Assembly: GCA_017506865.1 (NCBI GenBank)
Contig: JAFCMP010000246.1
Location: forward strand, 62,001 to 126,000
Direction of reading: 5' to 3'
Source of the DNA: Tribonema minus
Lineage: Eukaryota > Sar > Xanthophyceae > Tribonematales > Tribonemataceae
DNA length: 64,000 nt
The position numbers and the translations under genes were made by a program. Shown here piece by piece: positions 1 through 63,714 of the stretch (positions are counted from its first letter, which is position 1; the number at the start of each line of letters is the position of its first letter). Under the pieces are notes generated by a model, which saw nothing but the letters and a program-made list of their open reading frames with translations, ran no database searches and was not told the origin of the DNA.

Positions 1-3000
1 GCGCCCCCTGCCGCCGGAGCGCGTGCGCAGCAGCAGCGGGTGGCCGCCGCTGGACGCCTCCTTGAAGGTCTCCACGGCGACGGCGTCCGCGTACGTTTTT
101 GTTTTCTTGAAGGAGGCCAGCAGGTTCTGAGGGTGTGGGGGGCGGGGGGGCGGGGGGGCGGGAGGGGGGGGGTCAGTAGATTCGACACGACCGACGCTGG
201 GCGTTGCAGGGGGGTCTGACATTGGAGCTGCAGGGCTCTCGTCAGTGTTGCCATTGCATGTCCATTGCGGCGCGCGCGCATGGCAAGGCGCGAGTTGCAG
301 ATATGGATGCAGAACGCGCCAGAACGCGACGGCGCTCGCAGCGGCTCTGCTGGTGGAGCTGCGCAGAGAATGCGGCGCTGTGTTGCCCTACGCATCCTCT
401 ATGTACTCATGGACTTGGACGTGCCATATACTTTACTTGTGAAGTACATCCTGCATTGCGCAGCGCTGCACTTGCAAAGAAAAAGCTGCTGATTCTGTAG
501 CTGAGCGCTGCCGCACGCACGTCCTCTACTAGCATATACACGTGGACTTGTACTAACATACATGCTGTACCGCCTATCAAAGCTACTGTCCACAATGTAG
601 CTGAGCGCTGCTACATACACGCACCTGGTCGAGCATGTGCGCAATCTCGTTGGCGTGCGGCTTGAGCGCATTCCTGCGCTCCTCCGGCGAGAGCTCCTTG
701 AACGCGTCCAGCAAGCGCAGCGCGAGCGCCTGGGGACAGCGCCGGGCAAGGGTAGGTATAGGTATGCATTGAGGAACCGGTGGCCCCCTCCCGCCCTCCC
801 CCCCCCGGGCGCCTCACTCGCAGTATGATTAGGGGTCAGGGTGCGGCGGCGCCGAAGTTCAAGTTGTGCAACTCCACGACCACAAAGAATGGGCGATGCA
901 GCTTGCATAAACCTTCCTGAACCCAACCCAACCCTAGAAATGTACGGGGGCGTGCGCCAGCACAGAGAAGCTGCTTGACCCTGCCTGCTATGGATGGCGG
1001 CGCGCCGTTGCCGGCCGCTGCTTTGAGGGCTAGGCTTCCGGTTAGCTGCAGCATCTGCAGCCCACGCAGCCGTGGACCCCCCGCATGCGTGCGCATGGTC
1101 TCTTTGTACGGTGCTGTCCCTGCGTGACGCGCGTAGCATCACTTGCGCATGTTAATGCCACTGGTTGCGGCAGCCGTGACGTTCGCGCTTGCATTCACAA
1201 GCACGCGTGACTTTGACCGCTGCGTTACCTGTGACATGTTTACCACTGGCATTCATTCATTTGTTCATTCATTCATTCACTCATTCATTTACGTGTGTCT
1301 GTGCTCGCCGCTGCAGGTGGACGATGTCTACCCGACCGAGAAGGCCATGTGGGAGAACTGCCACGGTCTGGCGCGGTGAGTCACCAGCAACAACTTCAAG
1401 AAGCACTAAGTGGGTGCATTGAAGCTGGCATAGTAGGCCTGTTGGCATGCACGAAACCAGGATGCAGCACACCTCATGATTCTCAGCCGTAAACCTAGCC
1501 CAAATCCTAACTCCAACCTGGTGCTTCAGCCGGGAGCTGATACTCCTCATGTTATCCGACCCCAAACCTAGTACTTCAAGCAGCTGTTTTCCCGCCTCAT
1601 ACCTGATGTTTTAGCCGGGAGCTGATGTTGACCTCCCACCGACTGCTCGGCAGTATGAAGTCCTGGAGCAGGTCGTCCAGCGCCGCGTGCTGCGCGTGGG
1701 CAGGAGGAGCGTCGCACGGTCACAGATCTGTAGTTGAACTTGAAGTATGAGCACGCAGTGCTGGACCGGGGAGTGTACGCTCCGCCAGTGCACGAGGCTG
1801 GCCCAGCTGCTTCGCACGACTACAGCAAACAGCGCTCGAGGGGTAGCGAAGTGGCACTTCAACACTGCACCGCCAACTTCAACAGGGGGTGACGCACCTG
1901 CTCCTCCACCGTCTTGAAGTCGGCGTCCATGTAGTCGGTGACCTCCATCAGGAACTTGTAGCTCTCGAAGCACATGCTGCGGCGGCGCGGCGAGAGATTA
2001 CGGCGGCAATTGGCGCGTATATAAGGGGTGTGCCTACATGCAGGGGGCATGCGGTGCATGGCGTAAACGCTGGGGTGCAGGGGCATAGTCTGGGGGTCGC
2101 TGACCCTGATGCAGTTTTTGACGTGACTCGCTTCAGACCCTGACTCTGACCCTGACTCTGACCATCATCTCGCCCAGAACTTCAATACCGCCCTCATGAT
2201 GCCTGCGGCATATTAGGTTGCTGAAGCTAGTTGTTTTTGACTGTTCAAATCGTGCTTCCCGTAGAAATTGAATCCGCGTTCAAGGCCTTATGGTTAGGGT
2301 TATCGCCCAGAACCTTTAACGCCGCCCTCGTGATGCCTGCGGCATACCTCATTCCAGTGTGAACCGCAAAAGCCAGCACTCATGATGCAGGCCATACCTG
2401 CATGCCTGCATTCAGCGCCCTCCGCAGCGCGGATGACGGGGCGCTCCCATACGTACATAGAGCCTCATTCAACTCACGACGGCGCTCTTCCGCGCTCGCG
2501 CGCCTTCGTTCAACGCCCTGGGCGCAAAGGCCCCCATACCTACGTACATTCGTTCTCGAGGTGGTCCGCAAAGGCAGCGCTCATCACGGGGCTCTCCATG
2601 ATCTGATTCAACGACCTGATTAGATGAAGCGCCGCATCCCTACATACCTTCGTTCGACGTGTTCCGCAAAGGCAGCGCTCATCACAGGACTCTCCATGAT
2701 CTCCTTCAGCGACCTGAAATGAAGGCGCCGATACCTACATACCTTCGTTCAACAAGTTCCGCGAAGGCTGCGCTCATCACGGGGCTCACCACGATCTCCT
2801 TCAACAACCTGAAATGAAGGCCGCCATGCCTACGTACCTTCGTTCGACGTGCTCCGCGAAGGCAGCGCTCATCACGGGGCTCTCCATGATCTCCTTCGAC
2901 GACCTTGCGCAGACGCGCAATACCTACATACCCCTACATACCTTCGCTCGACATGTTCCGCGAAGGCAGCGCTCATCACGGGGCTCTCCATGATCTCCTG

Positions 3001-5888
3001 CGAGGAGCACCAGCGCTCCTTCTGTTTGTACTTCTCGCGCAGGAACGCCGCGCCGGGGCCGCTGCCCTCCTCCAGGGCCGTGCTCGACGTCCCGATGCGT
3101 ATGCTGCGGCGACGCAGGGCGACCAGTGGGTGTGTGTTACGCGCCGATAGTGACTAATTGGGTGGGGCAGGTTGGCGCACACGATACGCCGGGCTGAAGT
3201 GAAATGGGCAGCTTGCAGGAGGGGCATCTGTGCTGGGGCCGCTGCCCTCCTCCAGGGCAGTGCTCGACGTCCCGATGCGTATGCTGCGGCGACGCACGGC
3301 AACAAGGCGGTGGGTGGGTGTTGCAAGGTCAACACACATGGCTTCCTGGCGCAATACAGGGGCCAACCCCAGTGGTCTGCATTGATGAATGCTGCAATTA
3401 TAGGTACAGCTGGTGTTATTCGCTCAAAAGGATGTTCTCCACTGTCAGAGATTCGCCCCTGTCTATTGGTGTGTGACTGTCAGTCCATGGCTACGTGTGA
3501 AGCCGTGTTGAGTGAATGAAAGGCCGCAGTGAGTGGCTGTTCTTCAAAGCTGGTCGCACTGTGGCAGCGCTCAACATACCAGCCACTGGATGGTGTTGAC
3601 ATCATAGTAGATTGGCAGATTGCGTCAGCACATCCATCGATGGCACCATTGCATACATGAGACATCACGTACTACAAAAGGTGATCTGAAGTTGCATATC
3701 GACTGGTGTTACCATGGCAGCGCTTCTCCGCACAGTTCTGGCGCTGGTGAGGTCTTCAATCAGGGTCACCGCAACAGCAGTCTGGTGTGCTGCAGTGCGA
3801 AAGATGAAATGTGGTGATGTGAACTGGTTATCGTCACACATGGATGAGCTGACGTCTGAGACCACTGCAGCGCCCGTCGCATCCTCATGCGGCCCCAACA
3901 ACCACAACTGAGGTCTGCGGTCACCAGGACACATCTGACGGGGACCGTGCTGAGCATTGCTGTCATGGCCGAAAAACACCGCAATAGACGCTCACAAAAG
4001 GCGCGCGCGCCGACCCTGCCGAGGCGTACCCCCCTCACCTCCTCAGCAGCCGCTGCGAGACGTGCATGCGCGCGCTGCCGGCCGCCTTCTGCCCCCTCCC
4101 CCCCGCCGCCCCCCCCCGCCCCCCCCCCCCCCACGACGACGACGCGGCGGTGGAGGACCACGCCTTGCCCCACATGCGCCGCGACCGCACGAACGTGTCC
4201 CACATGCCGTGCACATGCATACACGCCAGGAGGTAGTGCGCGCGCGTGTCGAGCGCGAGCGCGCCGCCCTGCGCTGCGGCCACCAGAATAAAGTACTGCA
4301 GCGGCACAAGGCCAGGGAACGGGGGGGGGGGGGGGGGCGGCGGCCATGGTCAGTGTTACCAACGGCTTGGGGCTGCGCCGCGGCCACCAGAATAAAGTAC
4401 TGCAGCCGCAAGAGCGCAGGAATGGGGGGGGGGTTACAGTCAGTGTCGCCAACAGCTTGGGGCTGCGCCGCGGCCACCAGGATGAAGCACTGCGGCAGGG
4501 GTTGCGGAAAGCAGGGGGGGGGGGGGGGGGGGAGGTCAGTGTGCCGAGGGAACGGGGGGGGGGGGGCTGCGGTCAGTGGTGCTGACAGGTTCGGGGCTGG
4601 CATGGCCGCGGCCACCAGGATGAAGTACTGCGGCGGGAGCGCAGGGGGAGGGGGGGGGGGGGGGCTACGGTATGCGGTGCTGACAGGTTGGGGGTGGCAT
4701 GGCCGCGGCCGCCAGGATGAGGTTCTGGGGCAGGAGCGCAGGGAACAGGGGGGGGGGGGTGCGGTCACTGATGCAGTGTTGCCCATAGGTGGGGGCTGGC
4801 ATACGGTGCGTTCTCGGCAGCGGCAGCGTGCACGAGACTGCGGGCGGAGGGCGGCGCTGCGGCGCGGCCACCGGGATGAAGTGCTGCAGAACTGGGCGGT
4901 GGGACGACGCGGCGGCCGGGCGCGCAGCCCAACTTCAACTTGAAGAGCATTTCAGGAGCGTGGCCACGCACTGGTATGGCGAAACCGTAGTTGACGCCCA
5001 TGACGCGAACAAGTTTCGTCTACAAAGTTTTTTTTTTTGAAAGCGGATCTACTTCAAAAACAACTTAAAGTTGAGGAGCGTCGCCGCGTACTGGTATCGC
5101 GAACGCGTAGTTGACGCCCATGACGCGCACGAGCTCGCCGCCAATGTCGAGCGTGTCCTTGGCGTCGCGCAGCAGCAACCTACGTCAATCACAACTTCAA
5201 CTTAGAGAGCGCCGTCGCCCACGCACCGGTATTTCGAACGCGTAGTTGACGCCCATGACGCGCACGAGCTCGCCGCCGATGTCGAGCGTGTATTTGGCGT
5301 GTCGCGCAGCAGCAATGTACTTCAATTACAACTTCAACTTTGAGAGCGCCGTCGCCACGCACCGGTATCGCGAATGCGTAGTTGACGCCCATCACGATCA
5401 CGAGCTCGCCGCCGATATCGAGCGTGTCCTTGGCGTGTCGCGCAGCAGCAAACTACTTCAACTACAACTTCAACTTAGAGAGCGTCATCCTTGAGAGCGT
5501 TGTCGCCACGCACCGGTATGGCGAACGCGTAGTTGACGCCCATGACGCGCACGAGCTCGCCGCCGATGTCGAGCGTGTCCTTGGCGTCGCGCAGCAGCTT
5601 GAAGAGCGCCGCCGACGCGAACGCCGTCGCGACGAGCACCGAGAACCAGAACTGCCACGGCATGTACGCGAGGCAGTAGTCCTGCGACTCCGTGGTGGCG
5701 CCGGCCAGCTGCGACGGTGGAGGAGCGACGGCACGACAGTGCGGCTTGTGAAGCAAGAAGTTGAACCTGCAGCCAAGGAGTGGGGTTTTGGCTATGAGTG
5801 ACGGCGCGACAGCACCGAGAACGAGAACTGTCACATATACGCGAGGCAGTAGTCCTGCGACTCCGTGGTGACGCCCGCCAGCTGCGGC

Positions 5889-5919
<31 letters not shown>

Positions 5920-8114
5920 GCGGCGGATGAGCAAGGGCGCGGCAGCGTTGTGCCTGTGAGGCGAGGAGTTGAAGTCGCAGCCGGGATTGGGGGCACTTGC
6001 TGGGTCACCGCATGCCCCGGCATGTGCCATGTCATCCGAAGTCGATCGATTCACTCACGCTTTATGACCTCGCAATCGCTGGACTCTGGCGTGCGATCCC
6101 CACTGCCACCACACCCGCCAAGCCTGCGATCATCGTTCTCCATTCGCGCACTCTATCACTCTTCAGTCACGTGTTCATGCTCAAGTAGCACTCTTAAGGT
6201 TGCAACGCACCGTCCGGCAACAGCGCCGTGCGAATGGTATACCCCCCCCCCCCCCCCCAATCCCTCATGCAGCACACGCACTTCGAGCATCGTCATTCAC
6301 TCATGAAATTCACACACACATGAATTCATGTCCATTCGTCCACCCGCGCACCTGCAGGCCCAGCGCGATGCACAGAAACAGCGCCGTGCTGCCGGCGATG
6401 ACCGCGGCCTGCCCGCGCCAATCCACGTACCGCAGGTATTTCGCGCGCCAATCCTGCCGCGTCAGCGTGATCACGCGCAGCGCGCGGATCGGCATGGGCA
6501 TCTGTGCGCGAGGCGGAGCGCTGCTGTGTCAGCACGGGGTAGGCTGGTATGCTTTCATGGAGTGCACGATGGCACGAGGCTGGGCAGAGGGGGAGACGGC
6601 ACGCGCGAGGGGCAGCGGCGGCGCTGCTGCGCCGAGGCGGAGCGCTGCTGCATCATCGGGGGTACGTATGTATGCATGGTGCGCCGCCGGTGGACACACC
6701 GCGGTGACCGCGCTGCTGAATTCGTGTGCACGATCGACGTGCAGCGGAAATGCGACCAGGGTTGGGCTGAGTCGCGCCAGCGACGGAAGCTCAGTCACGG
6801 GCACCGAAGGCGTCAATGGAGCATGGCAACCGTGCCACATTCTGTGTGCGAGCTGTCGCCTGCGTTGAGCGTTGCTGCGCAGCGGGCCGTGCGCACACGC
6901 GCAGGCGCGCCGCGCTGCTGCTCTTTGTCGCTGAGCGCACCGCCGCTTACGTCGTGCGCGCACTGGCCGCACAAGCTCTGACACAGCATCGGTGCTGAGG
7001 GCTTGGGAGCGCGATACGCATGGCAACGTCGTGCATCTTCCCAGGTCTGTTGTGCCCGGCCTCGTGCATTTGTTGAAGAGCACAAGCATAGGGGACAATG
7101 CCGGTCGGCGTCAGGGGCACTTGATCTCTCGGGACACTGCGTGTCGATTGGCGGGAAGTCGCTGCACACATGTGACAGTTGAAGTCACATGATCAAGTTT
7201 ATCAGCACCTGTAGGCGAGATGTGAGAGTGCACCAGTTGGCTTCCTCTGCTGCCTTGGCATGAGAAGATCGCCGTGCATTTGACAACCATGACGGGGCAA
7301 TCCTGCCAGCTAGCGATGAAATTCAAACGGGCGCCTTCATGTACTAGTAGCTGCTACTGTACACAGTACAAGTAGTTTAGATGTGCCGTGTGCTCGAGGA
7401 GTTGGCTGTGGGCAGCGGCCACTGCGGAGCACAGGCTGCCAGACAGTGCTTTTCAACTGTAACGGCTACTTACATACATACCAGCATGGGAAGCAGTGCT
7501 TTGCAACTATAACGGTTACATACATACATACATACCAGCATGATGGGGAGCAGGCAGTAGCACCCCCACATCATCACCCAGCATGGGAAGTCTAGCTCCA
7601 GCTGTCGCATGCACTCCTGCACCGCAAACACCGCCAAATAGGCCATGTTCGCCACCCCCGAGGCGAAGCACAGCGGCGGCGACCGGGCCCTGACCAGCAT
7701 GTCGTTGCGCCTCTGCCACATGGCAGCCATCCATACACAGAAGGCAATTTCCAGTGCACTAAAGCACACCAGGAAGACCACGAAGCCCTGCGCAGCACGA
7801 GCACAGAGATGGGGCGATGCATGAGCGGTCCGCCATGACTGGAGTGCACAGCATGTCTAGATATGCACACATCGTGTGTAGTACTACGGGCTTCGACGGC
7901 ATCATGTACAGCGTCGCGAGTATGGCGGCGGTCGCAGTGGGTATCATGAAGAGGCCACAAGTGGCGGCAACGGAGTCGCCCGCTTTACATGATGCAAACA
8001 TGGCTTTAATGAGGAGGGCCGTGCTTAAACGCCAGACAAGGTGTGATCGTTGACCGCGTCGTATCAACACTAGGTAGGTGGATGAAGAAGAATACTCACT
8101 GAGGTCACCGCCAT
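1..8114 (-). CDS. Seven-transmembrane receptor fused to an RGS domain (3' end off window)
   Basis: Likely a plasma-membrane protein that stimulates G-alpha GTP hydrolysis, built like plant RGS1 and protist GPCR-RGS fusions. Minus-strand exons: 8114-8100 (MAVTS), 7787-7536, 6501-6352, 5708-5514, 4295-4039, 3103-2942, 1976-1898, 1689-1603, 729-625, and 126 to the edge. Phase is continuous through the 1603 exon. Residues 6-89 hold about three hydrophobic helices, the next two exons one each (IAGSTALFLCIALGLQ; WFSVLVATAFASAALF), and the 4295 exon starts with YFILVAAA and continues to the last helix. The RGS domain starts near SSQEIMESPVMSAAF and continues through CFESYKFLMEVTDYM and WEVNISSRLKHQ, which match the family core. 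The last RGS helix, expected between 1603 and 729, was not found. The two last exons (LLDAFKELSPEERRNALKP; LLASFKKTKTYADAVAVETF) are placed by splice sites and codon use only. Six of its introns carry splice-edge copies, listed separately. Confidence 0.82.
1317..1375 (+). other. Unassigned candidate plus-strand exon
   Basis: A 59-nt stretch preceded by ctgcag and followed by gtgagt reads VDDVYPTEKAMWENCHGLAR with GC-rich third positions. It lies inside the intron between the 1689-1603 and 729-625 exons of the minus-strand RGS gene, where the end of the RGS domain is missing. I found no partner exons on the plus strand, and the minus-strand reading meets a stop. It may be chance, a nested gene fragment, or a locally inverted piece. 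Confidence 0.25.
1505..1560 (-). repeat. Donor-edge copy of RGS-gene exon 1689-1603
   Basis: About 100 bp into the intron, the last codons of the exon (ISSRLKHQ) and its donor are repeated in diverged form. The copy keeps CACCAG followed by GTTGGAG. Confidence 0.7.
2164..2355. repeat. Two-copy intronic repeat, period about 135 bp
   Basis: Two copies of a stretch with tcgcccagaacttcaat and gatgcctgcggcat lie at about 2168-2217 and 2302-2355, between the 3103-2942 and 1976-1898 exons. I could not match the unit to a neighbouring exon edge, so it may be an older array or an independent minisatellite. Confidence 0.5.
2380..2935 (-). repeat. Donor-edge array of RGS-gene exon 3103-2942
   Basis: Four clear tandem copies (about 2545, 2643, 2738 and 2840) and about two decayed ones repeat the last 50-60 bp of the exon plus its donor, with a period near 100 bp. 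The real donor is CGAAG|GTATGTAG. Three of the four clear copies keep GAAG|GTAYGTAG, and one has lost it. Confidence 0.85.
3230..3300 (-). repeat. Acceptor-edge copy of RGS-gene exon 3103-2942
   Basis: Bases 3239-3299 repeat 3059-3119 almost exactly, covering the acceptor (CGCCGCAG) and the first 45 or so exon bases. The near identity suggests a recent duplication. It lies just upstream of the real acceptor in transcript orientation. Confidence 0.85.
4375..4895 (-). repeat. Acceptor-edge array of RGS-gene exon 4295-4039
   Basis: Five diverged copies (about 4385, 4475, 4610, 4705 and 4868) of the acceptor and first exon codons (YFILVAAA) lie upstream of the real acceptor. All five keep CAG immediately before the exon-like start. 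The units are separated by long G runs on the plus strand, which become C-rich pyrimidine tracts in the transcript. Confidence 0.88.
4930..5460 (-). repeat. Donor-edge array of RGS-gene exon 5708-5514
   Basis: Three full copies and one partial copy, with a period of about 145 bp, repeat the coding edge LDIGGELVRVMGVNYAFAIP and its donor. Each carries a spacer with aacttcaactt. The real donor is ACCG|GTGCGTGG; every copy still has GT at that place (GTGCGTGG, GTGCGTGGG, GTACGCGG, GTGCGTGG). Confidence 0.9.
5815..5905 (-). repeat. Acceptor-edge copy of RGS-gene exon 5708-5514
   Basis: The first codons of the exon (LAGATTESQDYCLAYM) are repeated upstream as LAGVTTESQDYCLAYM, followed by a stop codon, behind an intact CCGCCGCAG. 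The exon therefore has copies of its left edge on one side and of its right edge on the other. Confidence 0.88.
7470..7500 (-). repeat. Donor-edge copy of RGS-gene exon 7787-7536
   Basis: A short copy of the exon end keeps CATGCTG|GTATGTATG, about 50 bp into the intron, and a neighbouring stretch (aactgtaacggctac) is also duplicated. Confidence 0.6.
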
Positions 8115-43651: not shown

Positions 43652-43721
<70 letters not shown>

Positions 43722-51200: not shown

Positions 51201-54200
51201 AGTGTATTGCGTGTGCGTGCGGTTGGTAGTGGGCGTTGTGTGTGCGCCTAGCAGGCAAAGCATGCACAAGCTCCCTAGATGCATACTTGTGGTAGGTAGT
51301 GCAGAATAGGGGTTCTGCCCCTCGAGCGGAAGTAAACAAAGCACGCTGCAAAGCATACCCTTCTGCGTGTCACGTTCCAATACAATCACTGGACGCATCT
51401 GAAGTACCAGCATACCGTTACATGATCAGCCCGAGATATCCGATGAAACACTGCAGCAGGCGCAGCGGAGGGGGGGGGGCACGGGAGCTCCCAAGCCCTC
51501 ATCGTTGCGACCTTCTGAGTCCGTGCTGCTATCGGATGGATTGCATGCGCTCGCTGGCGGCTACAACCCATCAGTTACATCAGTTACCTCCGCTGAGCAC
51601 CCCGTTCACACAGTCACTCACCGGATAATGCGCTCTGGCCACCCCGGGTTCCGAACACTCCAGAACAGGATGCAGCCCGCCTGCGCCGGCGCCGGCGCCG
51701 TTCTCTGCAGCAGAGAACTCGCGCCGGACTGGTCCTGAGCGCCATTGGCGCCCAGCGTCTGCAGCATGTTCGCGCGCGCGGGCCTGTCAGCGGCAGCGGC
51801 GGCGGCGCGCGTGTCGCCGGCGGCGGTGCACGTCAGCGCTCCGTAGCCGGCCGCCAGCAGATCCTGGGGGGGTCACGCGGCGGCGTGGGGGGGGGGGCGG
51901 GATGGGTCGATGTGTGAGGGTGATTGCGGTCCTACTGAGAGGGTAAAGTATGATGCTGTGGGTGGGTGCCTTGGGGCTGCTGCAGAAGGGGGAGTCAGTG
52001 CTGCGTAGCCGGCCGCTAGCTCAGTTCGTGTGACCAGCGGGGCAGGGGGCGAGAGCCTGTTAGCTGAGCGCTGTGACGGCGGGCGCCCTGACCTCAACCC
52101 CTACCCTAACTTCGGCGCGCACCTTCCGTCCCCCTCGCGGAGGATACGGAAAATGAGATATGCGTCGCGCGGGTAGCGTTTCCTGGCGCATGCCATGCTG
52201 AAGCGACACGCCGCTCATCATCAGTCGAAGCGGCATGCAGCCAATCACCAGTAAAGGCCCATCGTGGTCAAGTTGCGCGCACCATCCTCGCAGAGAGTGA
52301 CCTTTCAAGCAACCGGCAGTCTGACTGCGCAAGCCCACCGTGCATCGCTCGCATGTAACCCCGCGGCAGCACAAGCGGCAGTACGCCGCCCGCAGGGCGC
52401 TGACACACGTCAAGCGCGCGCGCCGTGTCTTCGCACCGGAGGTACGGTAGGTACTTGGTTCTGATTCTGAAAGCTGAGCGCTGTGACGGCGCGCGCCACG
52501 GGCGGCCCGCCGCGCGCCTAGAGCGCCGACGCGGTTGCCGCTGACTATCACTAGAAGCCATGCAGCCGACCGTCAACTTAAGCCCATCTTGATCAAATTG
52601 CACGCTCAGTGCGACGCTCCATCCCCGCAGAGAGAGAGAGACCCCTGAAAGTACCTGATTCTGGTTCTGGAAGCTGAGCGCTGTGACGGCGCGCGCCACG
52701 GGCGGCCCCCCACGCGCCTCGAGCGCTGACGCGGGAAACAAGTGCGTCCAAAGCTTCTCCAGGGACAGCTGCGCCCCCCGCCCCTCCCCGCCCTCCCCGC
52801 GCGTGCTGCTGCCGCCGACGCTGACGGAGGCGTCGAGGGGGGTCGGGGAGGAGGGGCGAGAGGGCGCGGGGGGCTCGTCCAGGGGGGGCAGGTTCCGGTA
52901 CTGCAGCTGCTTGTCTGCGGGATGGGGGGTAGAGGGGGGGGGTCAGGGTGTGTGTCTGTAAGTTTTCATGGGTATGTGTGGAATTGATCATGTGATCATT
53001 GTCCTAAAGTGCACCTAGTGGAGCGATGCCATCAGAAGCACGGACCGGGGTTGGCGCGAGGGACAACGGCACTGCGGACAGAGGCGCTTTGTACCATCTG
53101 CAGTTTCACAGGGGCAGGGCCGGACTAAGGGCTGAGGTCAGGGTTGGCCAATCCCATCACCCTCAGCGCCTGACGCAAGCGTATCACCACGTACCACAAG
53201 CGCAAGCATAGGCCGTGCATGTCACAACACACCTCGCACTGGATCTCCATGCATGCAAGGATCTGACCAAGACATGGTGCTCTCTATTCCCCCCGCCCCC
53301 CTACCCCGCCTGCCCCCCTTCTGATGTCAGCATCAGGGATGCAGAGGCAAAGAGGGCCAAGGAAACAGTAATGGGTTGTGCTTGATATGATCCCGACTTG
53401 AAGGAGTTGGTGATGAACGGGGAAGGGGGGGGGGGGGGGGGGGCAACTCACCGAGGAACGCGTTCTGAAAGAGGCTGCGCTCCACCAGCTCCAATGCCGC
53501 GAGCAGCTGCGGAGACGTCAGGAGCTTTTGCGCCCTGTGCGAGGAGCGGTGGTAACAGGACATGTGGCCGGCTTAGTCATGTAGACGAAGCACACACCTA
53601 CAAATCCTAAATTGCATTTTTATCGTCTATCATGTGTGGCCCTGCATATACCATACCCTGAGCGAAGAGCGGCGCCAGGTGGCGGGCTGAGTCATGCTGA
53701 CAGAGTATGCCTACAAATCCTATGTTGTATATACGTACCCTTTGGCAATTTCGTGGGTCTGCCTACCAAGCTGAGCGTGGATAGGTACGTGCCAGGAAGA
53801 CAGGGTGGTGGGCTGCTGACGGAGCATACCTACATGCCCTATATTGTGTGTGCCTACGGACCATGCCCTGAGCTTGGAGCGATGCCAAGAGGACAGAATG
53901 GCAGATTTGGTAATGTCGATGATAAACGACTCAATTAAGCGTACAGCATGATTGCGAAGCAACAATGAAAAAGGCTGCTGAAGGCATAATTAGTGCCATC
54001 ACGCAGTCACCGCGCAGCTGCACTGTTGTCGCGGCAGCGATCGTGGCAGAGCCTGATGCTGAGGGGGTGCCAGTGAAACGCGCTGCATCGCTTTAGAAGC
54101 AACACTGCGCATGACGAACTGATGAAACATGTCGCTCTGCTCTCTACACATCATGGCCTGTTCGACCTCATGTCATGAGCCTCCCTAATTAATATATTCT

Positions 54201-57200
54201 TGCCCTACCCTTCACCCCCCCCATACCCTCGCCCTAAGTGGCAAATACGACGGCCTGACCCTAGCTCTAACCTAACCCTGACAGGATGGCGAGAGGTTGG
54301 CTGCATAGGCCAAAACCCTACACCAGCTCTGAGCGCTGACGCGAATCCTGATTGCATGCCTGACCCTGGTGTCTGCGTACGCGCATACGAACGAGCATCT
54401 GTGGATAGCTAGGGTTGGGGTTAGCTAACCCTAACCCTAACCCTAACCGTACGGTTTGTGACAGCTGAGCCTGCTCTTGGGGGGCAGGACAGCGGGTTGC
54501 ACTGAGGTTGGGATCAGAGCCAAAGCACGACCTACTATGCAGCAGGATGTGGGGCAACCGCATGCAGCATTCGCTCCCTGCTGCGTAACGCAACAAGCCG
54601 TGCACCAGCGCTCCGGACCTCTTTTTCTTCGCGAAAGGGGTGTCAACAAGAGGATGCATCGTCACACGCGGCACAAAGCGCGGGCAAGCGCACCCGTGCT
54701 CGCTCCAGAATGCACTTGTTTTCTCCACTGGTCGCCAGCCTGATGCCTTGCAATGTCCCTCCTAATCCTTCAATTCATCATCGCCAGCGTCGATGCGGGG
54801 CCGCCGCGTGGCATGGCTCAGTGCACCTATGCTTGCGAAGCTCCAGGATGCACCTTATCCTCTTGTCTCATCGCCAGTGTCCACTATTCACCAGTCTAAT
54901 GCATCGCGACGCGCTTGTATCATTCGCAACTGATCATCACCAATGTCAACGAGCTGCAGCGTGGCGCGCCTCGGCGTACCTGTGCTTGGCGAGCAGCGCG
55001 GCCGCCGCCTCTGGGCTGCTGTCGTCGTCGTCCATCACGCCGGGTCCTGTGCATGCACAGAGAAGAGCCGCCGCGCACGTGATTGCGATGTACGTATTAC
55101 TGTGGCCGCTGACCGGTGAATAGGTATTGCGAGTCAAACAGAGCACTCGTCCATTGCTGGGGCCTGCGGGGGCGCATTGAGTTGAGCCGCTGCACCTCAT
55201 GACTTAAGATGACGACGGCAGCGCGGCGGTGCATGTGCCAGCTGCGTTCTCGCCGCACAGGCGCTGTGATTGACGTCGTCAGATACGCACAAGAGTACGG
55301 CGCTCATGCGAATTGCGCGCAGCAAGCAGGCGGGCGGGCAGGTGCTTTCGGCACGCCGATGCTGGCACTCGCTGTAGTGCCGGCACTGCTGCTACCACGG
55401 CACGGCTGGCAATGGCACTGCGGCACTTCTGTCCCGTGTGTTCCGTGCAGCGTGGAAACGTGCCCGCCACGTACCATGCACCACAAGCTGCGCCCTAAGT
55501 AGGTACCTCAAGACACAACTTCAACTTCTGCCTTGGGGACAACGGCCTCAGCGCAGGCTCACCTCCGCCGCCGTTGTGGTCCGTGCTGCTGGCGTTGGCG
55601 GCGTCGCCGGCGGCGGCGCCGCCGCTCGTGTGCGTGCCCGTTCCAGAGGTGTTGTTGCTGCTGCGGCGCCGCTGCGAGGGGGCGGGTTTGGCTGGCGCCT
55701 GTGGCAGCGCACAGCATATGTGTATGAGCGGTGCCTCAACATCGTTGAACATGAACCAGGGGGATTGGACATTGTGCTCTGGTACAGACAGCACCGGTGC
55801 GAGGGTGGAGATGGCCGATCGCTGAGCTGTGTGGTGTTTGATCATGAATGAGTCTGAATTGTGAGTTGGCGTCAGCAGCAGCGATCAGTATGGCCATGGC
55901 GACTTGAGGGGCCGGAATTTCGCGTATATGGTTCACGTGCCTGCAGAGCTGTGCGCGTATGCCTGGGCACAGATAACAAAACGCCGCCAGAGTGTGGACG
56001 ACCAACCGTCGCGTGTGAATGCTCAGCACTGGAGCAATTTCTGCATTGGCGCTCTCCGTCCGGGCCAGCGCTAAGGCTCGAGTTAGATCAGGGTCAGTGC
56101 GACACATCACACAAAGAGAGTCAACATTGACACACGCGCGCTCGCCGCTGCCGGGCGCCAACTTTTGCTGCTGTCCACTGCGCGTCCGCACGAGGCGCCA
56201 CAGGCGAGCACTGCTGCGCCCGTGCTAGGATTAGGGTCAGAGCGTTGGGCAGCGTCAGCAAAAACCACAGCAGCCAAGCGCTGCTTGTCCCGGCGACGAC
56301 GCGGCCACTCAGCGCGACAGCCCGCCTCTCTCCGCTCTCGAGCAGCACAACACAGCGGAGCGCTGACATGGACCACGGCAGCAGCATCGCTCAGCAGCAA
56401 GCAGCAGCGCTCACCGCCGCCAGGGCTGTGGTCGACCATCGCGGGTAAGTGCTCAGCACTGATGCGGATTCCGCGTTGGCGCTCTCGGGCTGCACTAGCG
56501 CCGCCGCTCGGGCTGAACAAGGGTCAGCGCAACGCATCGCGGAGAAAAATGGCAGCAGCACGCAGCAGCGCTCACCGCCGCGAGGGTCTTGGACTTGACG
56601 CCGCCGACGTGCGCGCCGGAGCCGGACCCTCCCCCCCCGCTGTGCACGCCGCCGCTGACCCTGAGCGCGCTGCTGTGCCCGCCGCCGCCGCCGCTGCCGC
56701 CGCCGTCGCCGCCGCCGGACGAGTGCTGCACAGGCGGCGCAAGGTCGGCGAGCACAGCGTCGCTTGAGCGGTGGACGCAGCGTGAGAGTGCAGGCGGCAG
56801 CATTGGATGGCAGCGCTCAGCGGGTGTGAGCACGCGCGGCGCAGGCGGTGCTGCGTCGACGCCGCCAGCAGGCGTGAGCGCAGACGCCGCGGTGAGGCAT
56901 GAGAAGTGGCCTCAGTGCGATGGGATGCTTACGTCACGGGTCGCACGTGAAAAATAGCACGCGATGATGCAGGGTGCAGCAGCGCTCCACCGTTCCTGTC
57001 GTGGGTGACGGGCCGCATGCTGAGCGCTGCTGATGCGTGGAGGCCACGGCTCTCTGTCGCAACGGAGGCCATGCCTACATCACGCTGAGTCTCGTCGAAG
57101 AGTGCGACACAACCTGCGGCACGCCCACGGAACAGGTAGCCTAGTGGCAAAAGGCCTTTACTAGCAACAGGTGGCACGTACCTGCGGCAGCGGCGGCGGT

Positions 57201-60200
57201 GCAACAGTGTGCTCCGTCTCGAGCAGGCACCCCGGCGCGGCCAGCGCGCGCGCGACCATGTCGGCGACTTGCGCGGACACGCCGACGCTGGCCAGGGCTC
57301 CGCCTGCCAAAGATTGTTGCAGTTGAAGTTGAGGTTAAAGATGAAGTTAAAGTGGAGATTGATGTTGAAGTTGGAGATGAAGTGAGACAATAGAGTCACA
57401 CACGTAGGCATAGTGACTTCAAAAGTGAGCTTACACAACGGAGCATCACTGCTGTGCAGCGAGCGCGAGCGCGACCATGTCGGCGACCTGCGCGGACACG
57501 CCAGTGCTGGCCAGGGCGCCGCCTGCCGCACACAGGGTGAAGTTGAAGTTAGACAATGGAGCGTCACTATGCGGTGGGCGTGAGCACGGCTTTGACAAGC
57601 AATCTGCGCAGACACGGCGGCGCTGGCCAGGGCGCCGCCTGGTCGAAGACATTGAAGTTGAAGTTGAGGTTAGACAACAGAGTTACATCATGTCGCATAA
57701 TGTGACAGTTAGACAACGGAGCATCTCTGCTGTGCGGCCGGCACGGGCGTGTCCCTGTCAGCAACCCGCGCTGGCACGCCTGCGCTGGGTAGGGTGCCAC
57801 CTGGCGCGTGCGCGCGTGCAGACAAAAGTTTTTATGTTGATCGGAGAGGCTGAGGTGAGGCCAGCGTTGAACCGTCACACCGGTGGCGTGACAGCGGCGG
57901 CGTGACGCACACGATAGCCGTAGATAGGCCGCAAATACGAGTGTACGGTCAGCATTGAACGCATCCCCTCGGTTGCCTGGGGGTCACAGCTGGGGGTATG
58001 GGGGTGTGGTCCGCAAATGCTGGACCACGCATGGCCAAGCAGCAGGTATATTGCCGTCGCCAATGCTGGTGCTTTGAGCTCAATGCAGGTCACGGTCAAG
58101 AGCCTGGCACCGACCCCTGGTCACAATCTTGCTCCCAACCTTGACCATAGCCCTGACCCTGAGCCTGACCCTGACTGTCGACCATGTCGCAATGCTGCTC
58201 TTAACTAGGTCCACAGCCCTGACCTTAGGGTTAGGGTTAGGGCCACGGTTAGGGTTGGGGATAGGTCTGCCCCTCACCCCATCCTTCACCGCAATTATGA
58301 AGCTATAATTCTTTACGACTAGGCCTCCCGCTGCACTGCAGCGTCGCCCGCAACGCAACGCACAAGCGTGCGACTCCTGGTTCTCCTGCAGGACGAAACC
58401 GCAACCCTAGTTGTTCATGATGTAAATGTGACGCACCAGCGGCAGCTCCCCCTCTGCCGGCATCCCCCCCTTGCGCCCCCTTCCCAACCCCCCGCTTCTC
58501 CCCCCCAAATGCGCCGTCCTCGCCCGCTGCTGCCTCCGCGAGCGCCGCCTGCCGTGCAGCGCAATCACATTGTTGGGTTGGTACGCGATACTGCTTTGTG
58601 TGCATGCATACCCCCAGACCAGGGTGCATGCCCTACATATGCGTGCTGCCCGAATGACAACCTCAACTCCAGGGGGGGGGCTGGTATGTATGCATAAGTA
58701 TCCCCCCCGGCCTGGTGTTGCAGATGCACACCAGACACATGCATAGTACTGCATTACATGGTGCCAAAAGAACGACCTCCTGCGCGGCAGCGGCATCGTG
58801 CATCTACCACAGCATCATGACGAGTGTGTGTTGATGTGTCTTACGCAACGGCACGAGGGGAGCGTCACCTGCGTGGCGGCGGCGTCGTTGACCTACAACC
58901 GTAGCACAGCAACGCTCAACTATGTTGAGCTCGTGCTGACCTATTGAGGTAACCTCAATAGCCTATACAGCATGAGGAGGAGCGTCACCTGCGTGGCAGG
59001 CGGCGTAGATCTCCCACGGCAGCACAGCAATGCTCAGCTATGACGAGTACATGTTGACCCACTGGAGAACAGCATCATAGGCATATGTGTTGACGTATTG
59101 AAGTACCTATAACGCAACAGCATGAGGGGAGCGTCACCTGCGTGGCAGCGGCGTCGTAGATCTCCCACGGCAGCACCGACGCCGCGGCGTCCTTAGTTGG
59201 CGCCGGCACCGCCATCGCCTCCTTGTGCTTGGGCGGCCAGTTGAGAGTCTGCGTGTGACGCTCCTGCGCCGTCTCGCTGCCCTGCAATGACGTTCCGTCG
59301 TGGTGGTGACTCAACGTGAGCCTACAGCGGCATGTACAACATATCTCGGCACCAGATGCTACCCTTCACCCTACCCCTCGCCTGAACTCTGGTCGAAAAC
59401 CCTGACTCTGAGTTCTAGTGCCTGCGTGTGACGCTCCTGCGCCGTCTCGCTGCCCTGCAATACGCACCGCCATCGCGACACAGCATGATCGTGACTCAGC
59501 GTGATTGCGCAGTGGCATGCATGACCCCCACCGCAGCCCTAGCCCAAGCTGTAGTCGAAAAAACTTAACGTAGTTCACTTAAAAGACTAGAATGATATCA
59601 ATGAAGTCTGCGTGTGACGCTCCTGCGCCGTCTCGCTGCCCTGCGATACGTGCGCCATTGCAATGCAGCACAACCAAGACTCAGCACGATGGGACAGTGG
59701 GATGTACGCCGCAATATGACTCCCACGCCACCAAGCTGTAGTTCAACATCCTAGTGTGACGCTCCAGCGCTGTCTCGCTGCACGGCGTCCGCCGTCGCAA
59801 TGCAGCGTCACTGTGACTCAGCGTGGTTGTGAATCAGTGTGAACGCACCGCAGGGTCTACTATACTTCAGAAGTATACTGCAACACCAGATGCTTACGCT
59901 TACTTCCCTAGCCCAGGATATAGTCGACAGCCCTACCTCTCACCTTAACCCTAATCCTAGGCCTAATAACCCTGACCCATGTGCGTAACCCCAATCCTAC
60001 CCCCTAAATCCTAATTGCGAGCAGCCCCCAACCGAACTTTATCCTGCATGCTGAATGACCCCCCCCCCCCCCCCCGACACGACCAAACCCCAACAACCCT
60101 CAAATATAAAACCTTGACACTGACCCCCAATTTTTGCAGGGGCGTCGTGTACGCATATATTTCATGTAGACAGAGCTGCAGATATGACCGAGACAAGGGG

Positions 60201-63200
60201 ATGGCGGCACCGGTTTCCGTATTTCTAGACAGCAGGTCTGACATATCAGCAGCTGCTGAGCACCAGCATTCAACGCTGCCGCTGCCTACAATGGAACGCA
60301 TGGCGCGGCGCAAGTCAAGGTGCCATGAGCGGGGGTCGAGTACTCCTAACCCTAACCCTAATCCTAGTTCCAACCCCAACCCTTACCCTAATTTCAATCT
60401 AACTTAACCGAAAGGCGCTGAGCGCTGCGGCACCGCACTTGCTTGGCCGTACTCCCTAGACCTAACCCTAACCCTGCTCCTAGCCCAAACCCTAGTTTCA
60501 ATCCTGAACAGGTTAGGCGCTGAGCGCTGCGGCACTGCACCTGCTTGGCCGCCACGCGCCTGTCGTACTCCTGCTTCTCGCGCTGGTACTTGTCGTAGTC
60601 GCGGAAGTCCGTCGCAACGGCGGACCCCCTGCGCGCGCCGATAACAGTGAGAGACGGAGACAGATCGCGATGAGCTTGTGTCATATGCGCAGCAGCGCTC
60701 AAACCGTTTGGAGTACGGGGGGGGATGGGGGGGGTCTGAGCGATCGCGACGGTGGACCCCTGCGCGCGCCGAGGACAGTGAGAGAGGGAGACGGGTTGCG
60801 GTGAGCGTTGACAGGTGCGCCAATCGTGTGCGCGGCAGTGCTCAGCCATTTTTGGAGTAATGGGGGAGACGGGGGGGGGGGTCTGACCGCTACAACTAAT
60901 TACAACGGCAGAGCCCCTGCGCGCGCGGAGGACAGAGCCGCCGCGCCAGAACCGGAGACAGGTCACGGTGAGCGTGTGTCACATGCGCAGCAGTGCTCCA
61001 CCATTTTCATCACGGATAGGGGGGGAGGGGAGGGGGGCCTGAGTGTCGCGACAGCAGACTCCCTGCGCGCCGAGGACAGAGCCCCCACATAAGAGACGGA
61101 GACAGATCGCGGTGAGCGTATGTCACATGCGCAGCAGTGCTCAGCAATATCAGAGGGGAGGGGGGGTCTGAGTGCTGCAACCGATTGCGATGGCGGACCC
61201 CGTGCTCAGCCATTTTGGGAGTACAGCAGCGGGGGGGAGGGGGGCGGCGGGGGTCTGAGCAGCCAATTGCAACAGCGGACATCCTGCACGCCGAGTGCAA
61301 CCCCCCCATGAGGGACAGAGGCAGGTTGCGGTGAGCTGGCTAGGCGCACGTGTCACATGCGCAGCAGTGCTGAACCACTGGGAGTACAGCAATGAACTTG
61401 GCCGTACCTGATCTCCAGCAGCATGATGGTGGGGGTCTCTTGCAGTAGGAGCGTCACCGGCGCGGCCAGCTTGTCCTCCGTCAGCGCTCCGCCCTCCCCT
61501 GTGACGAAGACGATTGCACCACGGTGTTGTGGTCATGTTGTGGGAGTTCCTAATTCGGTGGCATCAGTCTCTGAAGCTATTAGGGGTGCTTGAACATGAA
61601 GTTGGGACATGCGTGTATGTACAACCAATCCGCTTTGGGCGATCATGAGAGACGGAGGCGTGGGGAGCGACAACGCTGGCAGTAGGCATGTATCTACTGA
61701 CAGTATTCACAATGGCAGTAGGTGACATTCGGGTAAGGTTTGGGTTAGGATTGGGGTGTGACGCTTGGGGTGGGGGGCGAGAGCATATCATGCACTTAAG
61801 TTGGGTTGGGGTTAGAGTCAGGGTCAGGGGCATAGTGACATCACGAGCTGCAAGTGCACGGGCCGCCTCAGCCAGACGTGCGCGAGTGGCGCCTCGTAGG
61901 TCGTGTAAAGACACCGCACACACAGAGACGCATGCGGCGCATCACTGACATGGCCCCGTGGTTCCAGCCGTATTTGAAGGGCTGATGGCGTGGTACCATC
62001 GCCACGTAAAAAGCTGGATGCAGTCATGATGACGCTATGTAGACGCGCATCTGGACTACCTGCTTGGGCATGCGCCATGTGCTTACACATGTCGTGACCC
62101 AATTCTCGCAGCAGGATCTCACGACGGCGCTTCGCTGCGGGCAGTTACGCAACAGTTACATGACAGTTACGTTCAAGTACGCACCTTCGCGCTTCGCCCT
62201 GGCCTTGGCGGGCTTGCTCTTGGGCGACATCGCGTACATTGCGGCCGCGGCGCCGCCCGCCGAGGACGCACGCGGCGGCCGCTCATCTGCACGCGGCAGA
62301 TACACACATTGCTGAGCACTACAGCAGTGTGTGCGTGCGTGGTTATGTGTTTCTGAGCACTGTGATTGCCTGCCACACCGCGAACAGCAGACACAATTGG
62401 CGCTGTGCACTGCGGCAAGGTGCTGGCGCCGTCAAGCGTGGTGATCGTGAGCTGAGGACGCGCGCGCCGCGTCCGCTCGTCTGCACGCGGCGGAGACGTA
62501 CTTCGCTGAGCACTGTGACAGAGTGTGCTTCTGAGCACTGAGATCGAAAACAGAGGCCGCGTGCGGCGGCCGGTCCTCTGCGCAGCAACGCATCTTCTCA
62601 CGAGCGCTGCGGCAGATTCTGCTTCTGAGCACTGTGGTCGTCAACCGAGGACGCGCGCTGCGGCCGCTCATCCGCGCGCGCAGCGGACGCATGCGCTGCT
62701 GAGCCTTCGGCACGGCTATGCTGCTGAGCGCTGTGATTGCGGCCGGCCGGCCGCGCAGATGGCACACGTTGCGGAGCAGTGCGACGACGTCTGCCGCAGA
62801 GCGCTGCGCTAGCGACACATGCGGCAGCCGTCGCTGCCTGCGCCGCCGCAGCCTCCGATGACCGTGGCAGGTTGTGCTGCGGAGCGCTGCAGCCGTCTAC
62901 TCAGAGGGCGCCGTAGGAGTCGTGGGCGGCCGCTCGTGCGCCGCGAGGCTGCTCCTGTGCGCAATTTGACATTTTGAACATGCGCCGCTGAGCACTGCGG
63001 CACGGTCTGCATCTGCGGATGCGCGCTGTGATCTCGTGGCGGTTGAGCGCGCGTTGGCGCAGCGGCGGCGGCGCGCCACGGCCTTGTGAGAGAGAGAGCC
63101 CTCGTGCAATGCGAACGTGTAACATCGTCAGGCTCGACCACGACCGAGGCACCAAATCCCACAACGGGACAGAGAGAGGCTGTACGCACTGAAGACGTGT

Positions 63201-63714
63201 AGCGCTGCCAGGCTCGATCGCGAATCGAGACACCAACATCCCACCGCGCTGACGCTGCCGGAGGCCAGTCGAGTGCGCCCTCACAGTCGGCGTAGACGCT
63301 CTTTGACTGAATTCAGTTTTACACCCCAGAAATGGTCACGTATCAGGTTCATCACCTGGGGATACCCCTTGATTCAATTTTATACCCCAGAAATGGTCAT
63401 GCATCAGGTTCATCACCTGGGGATACCCCCTGCTTCACTGCGGTCCCCCGGCGCGACCCCCCCTCCCCTGCCGCCGCCGCCGCTGCCGTCGCCGCTGGGC
63501 CCTTCCCTGCCGCTTGCTCATCTGTCCCCGCTTGCCCTATGGACCCGCTGCGTCGCTTTGCCGTCTGCAGCAGGCTCTGTGCTCGGGGAGGGGGGGGGGA
63601 GTTGAACAGTTTACAATAGGAGAGGTGGGGCACGCGGGGTGGGGGGGTGGGGCGGTACACGAACCGCTTGCAAGTATGAGGCGCTGCTGTCTGCATTCTT
63701 GTGCTTGGGGCCAT
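45280..63714 (-). CDS. DNAI4: Axonemal dynein intermediate chain, IC138/DNAI4 (WDR78) type
   Basis: WD-repeat intermediate chain; IC138-type chains belong to inner-arm dynein I1/f and regulate ciliary beating. Exons: 63714-63417 (tentative), 62286-62185, 61498-61408, 60628-60541, 59281-59138, 58548-58437, 57303-57182, 56725-56576, 55698-55563, 55046-54980, 53534-53452, 52914-52655, 51863-51622, 51144-50910, 50284-50189, 49166-48976, 48477-48396, 47724-47601, 46838-46686, 45821-45280. All phases join (about 1105 aa; about 990 if it starts at 62239, MYAMSPKSK). Family blocks: LQETPTIMLLEI, HTQTLNWPPKHKEA, ALELVERSLFQNAF, DLLAAGYG, FWSVRNPGWPERII, TPSGVTCLAFSDRHPNLLAIG, SAGKHNEPVWQ, LVSISTDGRVCEWSIKK, SRQASGLALDFPP, GTEDGLIHKC, YSEQYLETY, CSADWTVKLWD, NGRLELWDL. 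IC138-type rather than DNAI1 rests on the N-terminal and SRQASG/GTEDG blocks. A long Ala/Gly-rich tail ends it. Confidence 0.93.
46545..46640 (-). repeat. Donor-edge copy of dynein exon 46838-46686
   Basis: One copy repeats SQDGTDAPE and the GAGGG|GTA donor with the adjacent acacacaggcatactaaac intron stretch. The copy donor is GTAGGTTTAG against the real GTATGTTTAG. Confidence 0.85.
47205..47580 (-). repeat. Donor-edge array of dynein exon 47724-47601
   Basis: Three units (about 47213, 47336 and 47463), period about 125 bp, repeat DVCWSPTSSTLLASAA and the donor. The first two keep CAG|GTGAC; the 47463 copy has an AT in place of GT. Confidence 0.88.
49225..49545 (-). repeat. Acceptor-edge array of dynein exon 49166-48976
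   Basis: Four units (about 49242, 49338, 49437 and 49518) repeat the acceptor and first codons GCVHAPLM. All four keep AG before GGCTG. G-run spacers of 10-20 bases become pyrimidine tracts in the transcript. Confidence 0.88.
49725..49975 (-). repeat. Donor-edge copies of dynein exon 50284-50189 (decayed)
   Basis: Two copies (about 49729 and 49949) repeat RVCEWSIKK. Both have lost the donor GT (one reads GCACGG, the other CCACTG), a contrast with most arrays in the window. Confidence 0.7.
51995..52022 (-). repeat. Acceptor-edge copy of dynein exon 51863-51622
   Basis: A short copy of the exon start (AAGYAALT for AAGYGALT) lies about 130 bp upstream of the real acceptor. The AG itself has changed. 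Confidence 0.55.
52060..52530 (-). repeat. Donor-edge copies of dynein exon 52914-52655
   Basis: A clear copy at 52450-52530 repeats ARAVTALSFQNQNQ and keeps a GT (GTACCTACC). A shorter remnant (gagcgctgtgacggcgggcg) is at 52066-52085. Confidence 0.75.
53635..53905 (-). repeat. Acceptor-edge copies of dynein exon 53534-53452
   Basis: Two or three diverged units carry CTCAG|GG at the place of CACAG|GG, plus a shared block with cctacaaatcctaa. Copies are near 53655 and 53867; a central unit near 53770 is weaker. Confidence 0.6.
54421..54450. repeat. Interstitial telomere-like tract (CTAACC)n
   Basis: Four to five units in a dynein intron. Confidence 0.9.
54780..54960 (-). repeat. Donor-edge copy of dynein exon 55046-54980
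   Basis: The copy at about 54790-54845 repeats the LLAKH end and keeps CATAG|GTGCAC. Confidence 0.6.
56020..56440 (-). repeat. Donor-edge copies of dynein exon 56725-56576
   Basis: Units with gtgctcagcact and ttggcgctctc recur at about 56020 and 56450. Copies of the exon end are at 56400-56425, with GGCGGCG|GTGAGCG intact, and, decayed, at 56135-56160. Confidence 0.65.
57410..57860 (-). repeat. Acceptor-edge array of dynein exon 57303-57182
   Basis: Three units (about 57500, 57620 and 57775) repeat the acceptor and GALASVGVSAQVADMV. All keep CAG before the exon-like start. Spacers contain gaagttgaagttg-type motifs. Confidence 0.85.
58223..58255. repeat. Interstitial telomere-like tract (TTAGGG)n
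   Basis: Three TTAGGG units plus degenerate flanks, in the opposite orientation to the tracts at 13800 and 54421, in a dynein intron. Confidence 0.85.
58845..59045 (-). repeat. Donor-edge array of dynein exon 59281-59138
   Basis: Two copies (about 58860 and 58985) keep CCACGCAG|GTGACGCTCC, identical to the real donor. Confidence 0.85.
59400..59800 (-). repeat. Acceptor-edge array of dynein exon 59281-59138
   Basis: Three copies (about 59420, 59607 and 59756) of GSETAQERHTQT. The first two keep the AG (TTGCAG and TCGCAG before GGCAGCG); the third is changed. Confidence 0.88.
60405..60465 (-). repeat. Donor-edge copy of dynein exon 60628-60541
   Basis: One copy with GGCCAAGCAA|GTGCGGTG and the adjacent ggcgctgagcgctgcgg intron block. 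Confidence 0.8.
60690..61345 (-). repeat. Acceptor-edge array of dynein exon 60628-60541
   Basis: Five units (about 60740, 60900, 61045, 61188 and 61270), period about 120-155 bp, repeat the CGCGCAG acceptor and first codons, with G-run spacers and a gcagcagtgctca block. Four keep the AG; the 61188 copy does not. Confidence 0.85.
62305..63080 (-). repeat. Acceptor-edge array of dynein exon 62286-62185
   Basis: Roughly seven to nine units of about 90-110 bp contain gaggacgcgcg, ccgctcatctgc or ccgctcgtctgc, and gctgagcactgtg. The gctcatctgc block corresponds to GCAG|ATGAGC at the real acceptor. The array is why I extend the gene past the 62239 ATG: an acceptor there implies an upstream exon. 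Confidence 0.75.
63320..63366 (-). repeat. Donor-edge copy of the tentative first dynein exon
   Basis: A unit repeated with a 61-bp period holds TATCCCCAG|GTGATGAACC, identical at the real donor (63417) and at the copy (63356). This supports a donor here, and hence the exon at 63714-63417. Confidence 0.7.

Follow-up and report, generated by a model that had tools for sequence, protein, structure and literature searches.

In the xanthophyte alga Tribonema minus, the edges of exons are repeated inside the adjoining introns. The arrangement was analyzed in a 64,000-nucleotide stretch, called the window here (C246:62001–126000, from an assembly of 158.2 Mb in 554 contigs), and in five kinesin genes on five other contigs. 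The sample comprised 12 gene models with 67 introns, seven genes being in the window. In the strict test, a probe of 40 exon bases and 20 intron bases was taken from each edge (two low-complexity acceptor probes were excluded), and 43 of the 132 edges were found copied in the adjoining intron. Donor edges (23/67) and acceptor edges (20/65) were both copied, and the window by itself gave 14/40 donors and 8/39 acceptors. Foreign edges never matched (0/1555; donor 0/794, acceptor 0/761), nor did reverse-complemented probes (0/132; donors 0/67, acceptors 0/65). The wrong-side intron, which adjoins the opposite end of the exon, contained no copies (0/110; 0/55 for donors and 0/55 for acceptors), and probes from the middle of exons matched in 1 of 21 cases. 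With an earlier, looser exon list, 24/81 donors and 22/80 acceptors were copied, and each wrong-side control gave 1/73. The exon-edge copies in the adjoining introns are real. The original prediction, made from the letters of the window, had placed donor copies downstream of donors and acceptor copies upstream of acceptors, and had expected introns to match their own edges rather than those of other exons; both are borne out by these counts in the loci read.

A gapped search found copies at 42 of 134 edges, 81 copies in total, with a foreign-edge control of 0/402. One copy was present at 22 of the 42 edges, and the maximum was seven, at one edge. Thus, the predicted stacks exist, but they do not reach about nine copies. 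Most copies differ by ~5–30% from the real edge. According to the strict test, 10 of the 12 genes have at least one copied edge. The claim that every recognized gene on both strands is affected holds for these genes, but not for AMMECR1, the sole plus-strand gene modelled in the window (0/8 edges, with one weak copy by the gapped search), nor for a two-exon fragment (0/2). Direct reading of the sequence agrees: both edges of the exon 2942–3103 are copied, and five edges were aligned. Edge copying was replicated in the kinesin genes on five other contigs.

Self-comparison of the window gave 67 repeat pairs, of which 64 are direct and less than 3 kb apart; two of the other three are inverted (41.3–43.8k) and one is distant. 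Pairs within 1500 bp in the window are 67 direct and 0 inverted, and a 697-bp inverted pair at 41.4–43.7k falls slightly outside this limit. For the window and kinesin loci together, 318 direct versus 4 inverted redundant matches were obtained. The unit size in clusters that straddle a junction is 56–280 bp, a narrower range than the ~60–390 bp first proposed. Detected local repeats occupy 17,184 of 70,300 intron bases (earlier list, some intergenic spans included), and recognized edge copies alone occupy 7,168 of 57,944 (gapped search). The copies were therefore overstated as accounting for much of the intron length.

Judged from its sequence, the window belongs to the nuclear genome of T. 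minus, a xanthophyte with the brown algae among its relatives, because public T. minus AMMECR1 and alpha/beta hydrolase proteins match it. The AMMECR1 protein aligns at 35.8–39.97k in six pieces, four of them 96–100% identical; the other two, in which the exon limits are not the same, reach 91% and 67%. The alpha/beta hydrolase aligns with the carboxylesterase exons at 18.4–26.8k in eight pieces, seven at 97–100% and one at 88%. The gene models were built by a small self-training gene finder. The window models are an RGS-like membrane protein (RGS domain PF00615, E=0.00016, slightly short of the Pfam cut-off), a purple acid phosphatase-like protein (PF00149, E=1.9e-16; PF16656, E=1.9e-12), the carboxylesterase, AMMECR1, a WD40 gene (PF00400, E=5.3e-9), a small unnamed model and the two-exon fragment. 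The edges of the carboxylesterase were set by four related proteins (P0242, P0243, P0244 and P0247); besides P0242, these are the proteins of Chrysoparadoxa, Phaeothamnion and Ectocarpus. The kinesin genes were taken from about a dozen multi-exon kinesins and their choice, made on size and exon number, preceded any inspection of their DNA. Pfam PF00225 matches anchor 24 of the 32 kinesin exons, and the remainder are ab initio.

For the strict edge test and the cluster test, mini-exons that the gene finder had derived from copies or weak scores were excluded; for example, it mistook copy pieces of the donor edge 13037 for mini-exons. Two acceptors with conflicting models were fixed at the option giving the lower straddling count. 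The earlier exon list, which included some intergenic spans, underlies the decay, codon-position, dinucleotide, breakpoint and repeat-coverage figures. A region present twice in the assembly (C90/C179) was first used as a haplotype control and was excluded later as virus-like. The two copies differ by 4.5% substitutions where they align. Predicted exons were compared between them by codon position in eight training rounds, and the substitutions at positions 1, 2 and 3 were 0.012–0.017, 0.009–0.014 and 0.054–0.064. This pattern indicates that the models of the gene finder find coding sequence.

The repeats are concentrated at splice junctions. Under uniform placement, the chance that a unit of length u straddles an edge of its intron, of length I, is ~2u/(I+u). 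The intronic repeat clusters number 57. A single junction is straddled by 42 of them and both junctions by none, whereas 21.3 straddling clusters (~37%) are expected, and the observed number was reached in 0 of 200,000 draws. Straddling is thus about twice as frequent as uniform intronic tandem duplication predicts. In this respect, the proposal that the copies result as a by-product when splice junctions are tandemly duplicated is supported. The statement that nearly all local repeats are of this kind is true of the 42 clusters, but about a quarter do not straddle, nor does the intron array 23299–23400 (period 49 by Tandem Repeats Finder, TRF), which was not clustered, as shifts below 50 are discarded by BLAST. 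In the carboxylesterase gene, 6/6 clusters straddle. Where the match in a cluster reaches 88% identity or more, 24/27 clusters straddle, and among the remaining clusters 18/30; as the exon part raises identity, this class does not date the clusters cleanly.

An exon under selection keeps a straddling pair recognizable for longer, and the detection was therefore repeated with all annotated exons masked. Over all loci, 32/47 clusters straddled versus 17.8 expected (P=1.5e-5), and in the kinesin loci 18/22 versus 7.3 expected. Intron-only 40-mers, taken from 25 introns of at least 900 bp, had a copy in 104/491 cases at distances up to 400 bp from an exon, compared with 32/309 at greater depth. 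In 19 of these introns copies are richer below 300 bp than above 400 bp, and in two the reverse is found (P=0.005). Repeats are therefore commoner near exons than deep in introns, in accordance with the suggested contribution to intron growth. The exon overhang has a median of ~50 bp and is at most 85 bp in 95% of cases. Telomere-like hexamers are not associated with the repeat breakpoints (43/437 versus 417/3600 random intron positions).

Two candidates may be considered for the edge bias. One is a duplication-prone zone around exons, with the events inside exons removed by selection; the other is that homology is lost faster deep in introns. An exon-centred zone predicts in-frame duplications inside exons, and the exon-internal cases are too few to decide. 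No duplications with both copies in coding exons were found at shifts of at least 50 bp, shorter shifts being mostly missed by this detection, and the exon 13037–13352 contains one 33-bp tandem pair (13232–13292, TRF).

We consider it probable that the copies are left over from short tandem duplications, with units of ~90–220 bp, which arise repeatedly across splice junctions, are tolerated and are biased to exon edges. A short tandem duplication would arise and straddle one splice junction. The outermost splice site would still join the intact exon, as the continuity of the protein suggests, and the message would be unaltered; therefore, selection on the protein would not see the duplication. 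The additional copy would turn into intron and then decay, presumably as neutral sequence. Later duplications at the same working edge would be inserted between the exon and the older copies, and the older copies would shift inward. The one-sidedness follows from the geometry of tandem duplication, since the extra copy lies downstream of a straddled donor and upstream of a straddled acceptor. Slippage, unequal exchange and staggered-nick fill-in are pathways for tandem duplication, and the mutational step may be any of them.

The largest array is in the carboxylesterase gene. The related proteins traverse the exon 25206–25348, stop at its donor and restart at ~22863, and the 2.3-kb gap between these points contains the seven donor-edge copies. 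Some of these copies match the related proteins, as short broken pieces only. In stacks with at least two copies, the copy nearest the exon is the most similar in 15/22 (8.2 expected), as would follow if new copies arose at the working edge. These results suggest that T. minus introns lengthen partly via repeated small duplications across working splice sites. A less likely possibility is that exon edges are duplication hot spots and that introns lengthen from both ends toward the middle in the manner of a conveyor, each new copy of the working edge displacing older, decaying ones deeper, with junctions or exon-proximal chromatin actively directing the lengthening.

Several observations weigh against recurrent duplication biased to exon edges. 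The sample is limited to 12 gene models and 67 introns, and some edges are ab initio. In the window alone, 20/31 clusters straddle without masking (12.6 expected, P=0.004), and with masked exons 14/25 (10.6 expected, P=0.1); the latter is not significant, and the edge bias therefore leans on the kinesin loci. The overhang is below the uniform-breakpoint prediction, with a mean of 0.36 of the possible length (Kolmogorov–Smirnov P=5e-4, earlier list, n=45). Several pairs are not contiguous but have a gap between the copies, with 74–135 aligned bases at shifts of 138–247; a clean tandem duplication would give this only after decay of the intron part, which may have occurred; in some clusters (e.g. 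19497, 15516, 46525 and 60340) the aligned length is close to the shift, as for head-to-tail pairs. With the earlier list, 5/24 copied donors lack GT and 6/24 copied acceptors lack AG at the assigned places, and thus the exact junctions are slightly off there. Finally, the copy–copy identity is 0.82 for exon-derived and 0.74 for intron-derived parts, the exon-derived parts being more alike in 14/20 stacks. Free drift of both parts would not give this difference, for which weak constraint or an effect of the alignment may be responsible.

The best surviving alternative has no edge bias: short tandem duplications are placed uniformly, and the straddling ones are tolerated and stay recognizable longer, as selection holds their exon side. 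Uniform placement already predicts straddling in more than a third of all clusters, and the window alone is not significant with masked exons. The identity between the real edge and its copy is 0.88 in the exon part and 0.83 in the intron part, as decay with one frozen side predicts. The excess over all loci persists under masking, however, and in this set of long introns the frequency of copied intron-only 40-mers is two-fold higher near exons than at depth. We regard this alternative as rather unlikely.

Another explanation is that selection maintains the copies as spare or decoy splice sites, which would act as alternative donors and acceptors or tune splicing. Retention was scored only where the real site is canonical (19/24 donors and 18/24 acceptors). 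The copied GT was kept in 34/38 cases (0.895), slightly better than the neighbouring exon-derived dinucleotides (0.816), and the higher identity of exon-derived parts between copies also fits this explanation. In contrast, the copied AG was kept in 25/33 cases (0.758), no better than its surroundings (0.727). A less fair count, made regardless of a canonical real edge, gave GT or GC in 37/43 and AG in 25/45. The copied splice sites decay about like their surroundings. In the exon-derived part of the copies, substitutions at codon positions 1, 2 and 3 are 135, 141 and 205, a third-position share of just 0.43, and the frame is shifted by 56 of 61 indels. None of the copies appears in the public T. 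minus carboxylesterase protein. The copies thus appear to decay as non-coding DNA and look non-functional, and spare splice sites, which had been offered as one possible meaning, are very improbable. The frameshifting indels and the codon-position substitutions also led us to reject spare coding exons. Whole-exon duplication and mutually exclusive exons were rejected, because no cluster spans both junctions, the overhang is partial and the indels shift the frame. Random insertion of DNA or cDNA was rejected in view of the lack of reverse-oriented edge copies.

In the Rogers model of intron gain, an exon piece bearing AGGT is tandemly duplicated, and the copies might be relics of such events, which likewise put exon pieces into introns in direct orientation. 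This model predicts a copied upstream exon end at the acceptor and a copied downstream exon start at the donor, whereas, of 92 copies, 0 come as close as 15 bp to the opposite edge and 85 are nearer their own edge. As no copy abuts the opposite splice site, gain of this type is not what is seen, and we give this explanation almost no weight. An artefact of assembly or of gene models would be suggested by the single assembly and by the edges taken partly from a self-trained gene finder, and is just as hard to credit: the divergence of the copies is not produced by collapsed or mis-joined reads, 24 of 32 kinesin exons come from Pfam matches and the carboxylesterase exons from related proteins, and predicted exons in the twice-present region show the coding-type substitution pattern.

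The stacks of edge copies are a variant of tandem genomic duplication, whose direct orientation and close spacing are found in the window, and a single boundary-crossing case is already in print. In the potato RdRp gene, a single tandem duplication over an intron–exon boundary gave a new intron from a cryptic donor (PMC4974935). As at T. minus acceptor edges, that duplication takes in the intron end and the exon start, and the duplicated segment crosses exactly one junction, as in the 42 straddling clusters. Unlike this one event in one gene, T. minus has tens of edges with up to seven copies, at donors and acceptors, and no new intron is recognized from the genomic DNA alone. Tandem duplication as an intron source, the Rogers model, is described in PMC3443670 and PMC4974935. 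Short direct duplication involving exon sequence is common to this model and T. minus; in the model an intron forms between the copies of exon around AGGT, whereas in T. minus existing introns are lengthened and the copies sit by their own edge. The original prediction that no described class fits was too strong in view of the potato case, although no report of stacks of edge copies at many junctions was found in searches of an open-access library.

Intronic minisatellites are tandem units of tens to hundreds of bases within introns, and the T. minus arrays share this form. In the TERT gene, the repeat array is more than 1 kb away from junctions (PMC3948165), whereas the exon edge is part of the first unit in the T. 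minus stacks. In the case of introners, a single element is dispersed in many copies (PMC9860276). Like introners, the process in T. minus supplies intron sequence; unlike them, its stacks are private to their own exon. Dispersed elements were rejected by the foreign-edge control within the loci read; the genome-wide DNA search covered one 2-kb piece of the window.

Features of the window that bear on the edge copies (TRF, Tandem Repeats Finder)
Feature	Position	Strand	Evidence
RGS-like gene exon, both edges copied; donor 2942, acceptor 3103	2942..3103	-	reading frame read, gene model
Four copies of donor edge 2942, period ~95	2506..2895	-	TRF, self-comparison, gapped search
Copy of acceptor edge 3103, 180 bp upstream	3232..3322	-	self-comparison, alignment, gapped search
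RGS-like gene exon, both edges copied	5514..5708	-	gene models, cluster test
Four copies of donor edge 5514	4930..5422	-	self-comparison, gapped search
Copy of acceptor edge 5708	5825..5935	-	alignment, gapped search
Copy of acceptor edge 6501 (RGS-like gene)	6596..6675	-	gapped search only; in no repeat cluster
Repeat cluster by acceptor of exon 4039-4268 or 4295; models conflict, scored non-straddling	4269..4889	-	
Purple acid phosphatase-like exon; donor edge (ending THCPW) copied	13037..13352	-	gene model, Pfam, cluster test
Two copies of donor edge 13037	12685..12929	-	TRF, gene finder, gapped search
Purple acid phosphatase-like exon, both edges copied (14496-14610, 15156-15233)	14777..14965	-	acceptor copy aligned
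Tandem pair across donor 15599	15516..15673	-	TRF, self-comparison, cluster test
Tandem pair across acceptor 19541 (carboxylesterase)	19497..19789	-	related proteins, cluster test, gapped search
Carboxylesterase exon, both edges copied (21223-21315, 21753-21836)	21408..21563	-	edges from related proteins
Array across donor 22731 (carboxylesterase)	22405..22751	-	TRF, self-comparison, cluster test, gapped search
Carboxylesterase exon; donor 25206 heads largest array; acceptor 25348 has one copy (25478-25567)	25206..25348	-	related proteins
Seven copies of donor edge 25206, shift ~139-147	24130..25117	-	TRF, self-comparison, cluster test, gapped search
Tandem pair across donor 46686 (WD40 gene)	46525..46761	-	TRF, self-comparison, cluster test, gapped search
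Array across donor 47601 (WD40 gene)	47211..47675	-	TRF, self-comparison, cluster test, gapped search
Repeat cluster by acceptor of exon 48976-49115 or 49166; models conflict, scored non-straddling	49137..49542	-	
Copy of donor edge 52718 (WD40 gene)	52459..52534	-	gapped search only; cluster 52062-52700 does not straddle
Short direct repeat across donor 56576 (WD40 gene)	56392..56586	-	self-comparison, cluster test
Array across acceptor 59263	59246..59829	-	self-comparison, cluster test, gapped search; ab initio model only
Tandem pair across donor 60541	60340..60551	-	self-comparison, cluster test; ab initio model only
Array across acceptor 60628	60611..61377	-	self-comparison, cluster test, gapped search; ab initio model only
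Weak copy of donor edge 36890 (AMMECR1)	37036..37118	+	gapped search; absent from strict test

Other features were observed in the window. The public T. minus carboxylesterase model has an exon at 20409–20311, whereas the related protein P0242 supports 20680–20615 instead; the former is a probable annotation error. A 61-bp tandem pair with 90% matches (TRF) is located at 63311–63437, outside all modelled genes. The 184-bp sequence at 27194–27377 is present at 39 other scored places of the genome with 91–97% identity, on many contigs, and elsewhere it is flanked by partial tandem copies; by these matches it is classed as a dispersed satellite-like repeat. The inverted repeat 41398–42086 / 42985–43675 (697 aligned bases, 86% identity, ~900 bases between) possibly represents the terminal repeats of a mobile element. 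Telomere-type hexamers are present at 13799–14012, 20427–20466, 60348–60397 and other places. TTAGGG/CCCTAA occurs 52 times in the window versus 12.2 in shuffles, and 0 times in annotated exons; rotated hexamers of the same letters average 32, and therefore part of the excess is repeat phase.

On other contigs, C90:760001–860000 and C179:148001–248000 (L011–L030) are two related 100-kb stretches, mostly 4–7% diverged where aligned. They contain DNA polymerase-like, cytosine methylase-like and single-exon kinase genes and a tandem satellite of ~361 bp, and junction repeats are rare in them. From this gene content they look to be derived from a large DNA virus. Viral genes and phaeovirus-like recombinases are reported in Xanthophyceae (PMC13236599). 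Two loci (L009 and L010, on C334 and C112) are plastid rbcL fragments with one in-frame TGA each within nuclear contigs, and are probably plastid DNA insertions. The rbcL fragments in the assembly resemble the red-lineage form.

Edge copies are a hazard for annotation, as the gene finder used here took some of them for mini-exons. Splice-aware aligners are known to create false introns between repeated sequences (PMC10632439). The lengthening of introns in T. minus is of wider interest. Intron lengthening is usually attributed to mobile elements. In T. minus, a large measurable share of intron repeats stems from small junction-crossing duplications, with copies of differing age along the intron. 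If this is true genome-wide, T. minus would allow direct measurement of the rate, size and position of intron-lengthening duplications, and could be used to examine if duplications are drawn to splice junctions or to exon chromatin.

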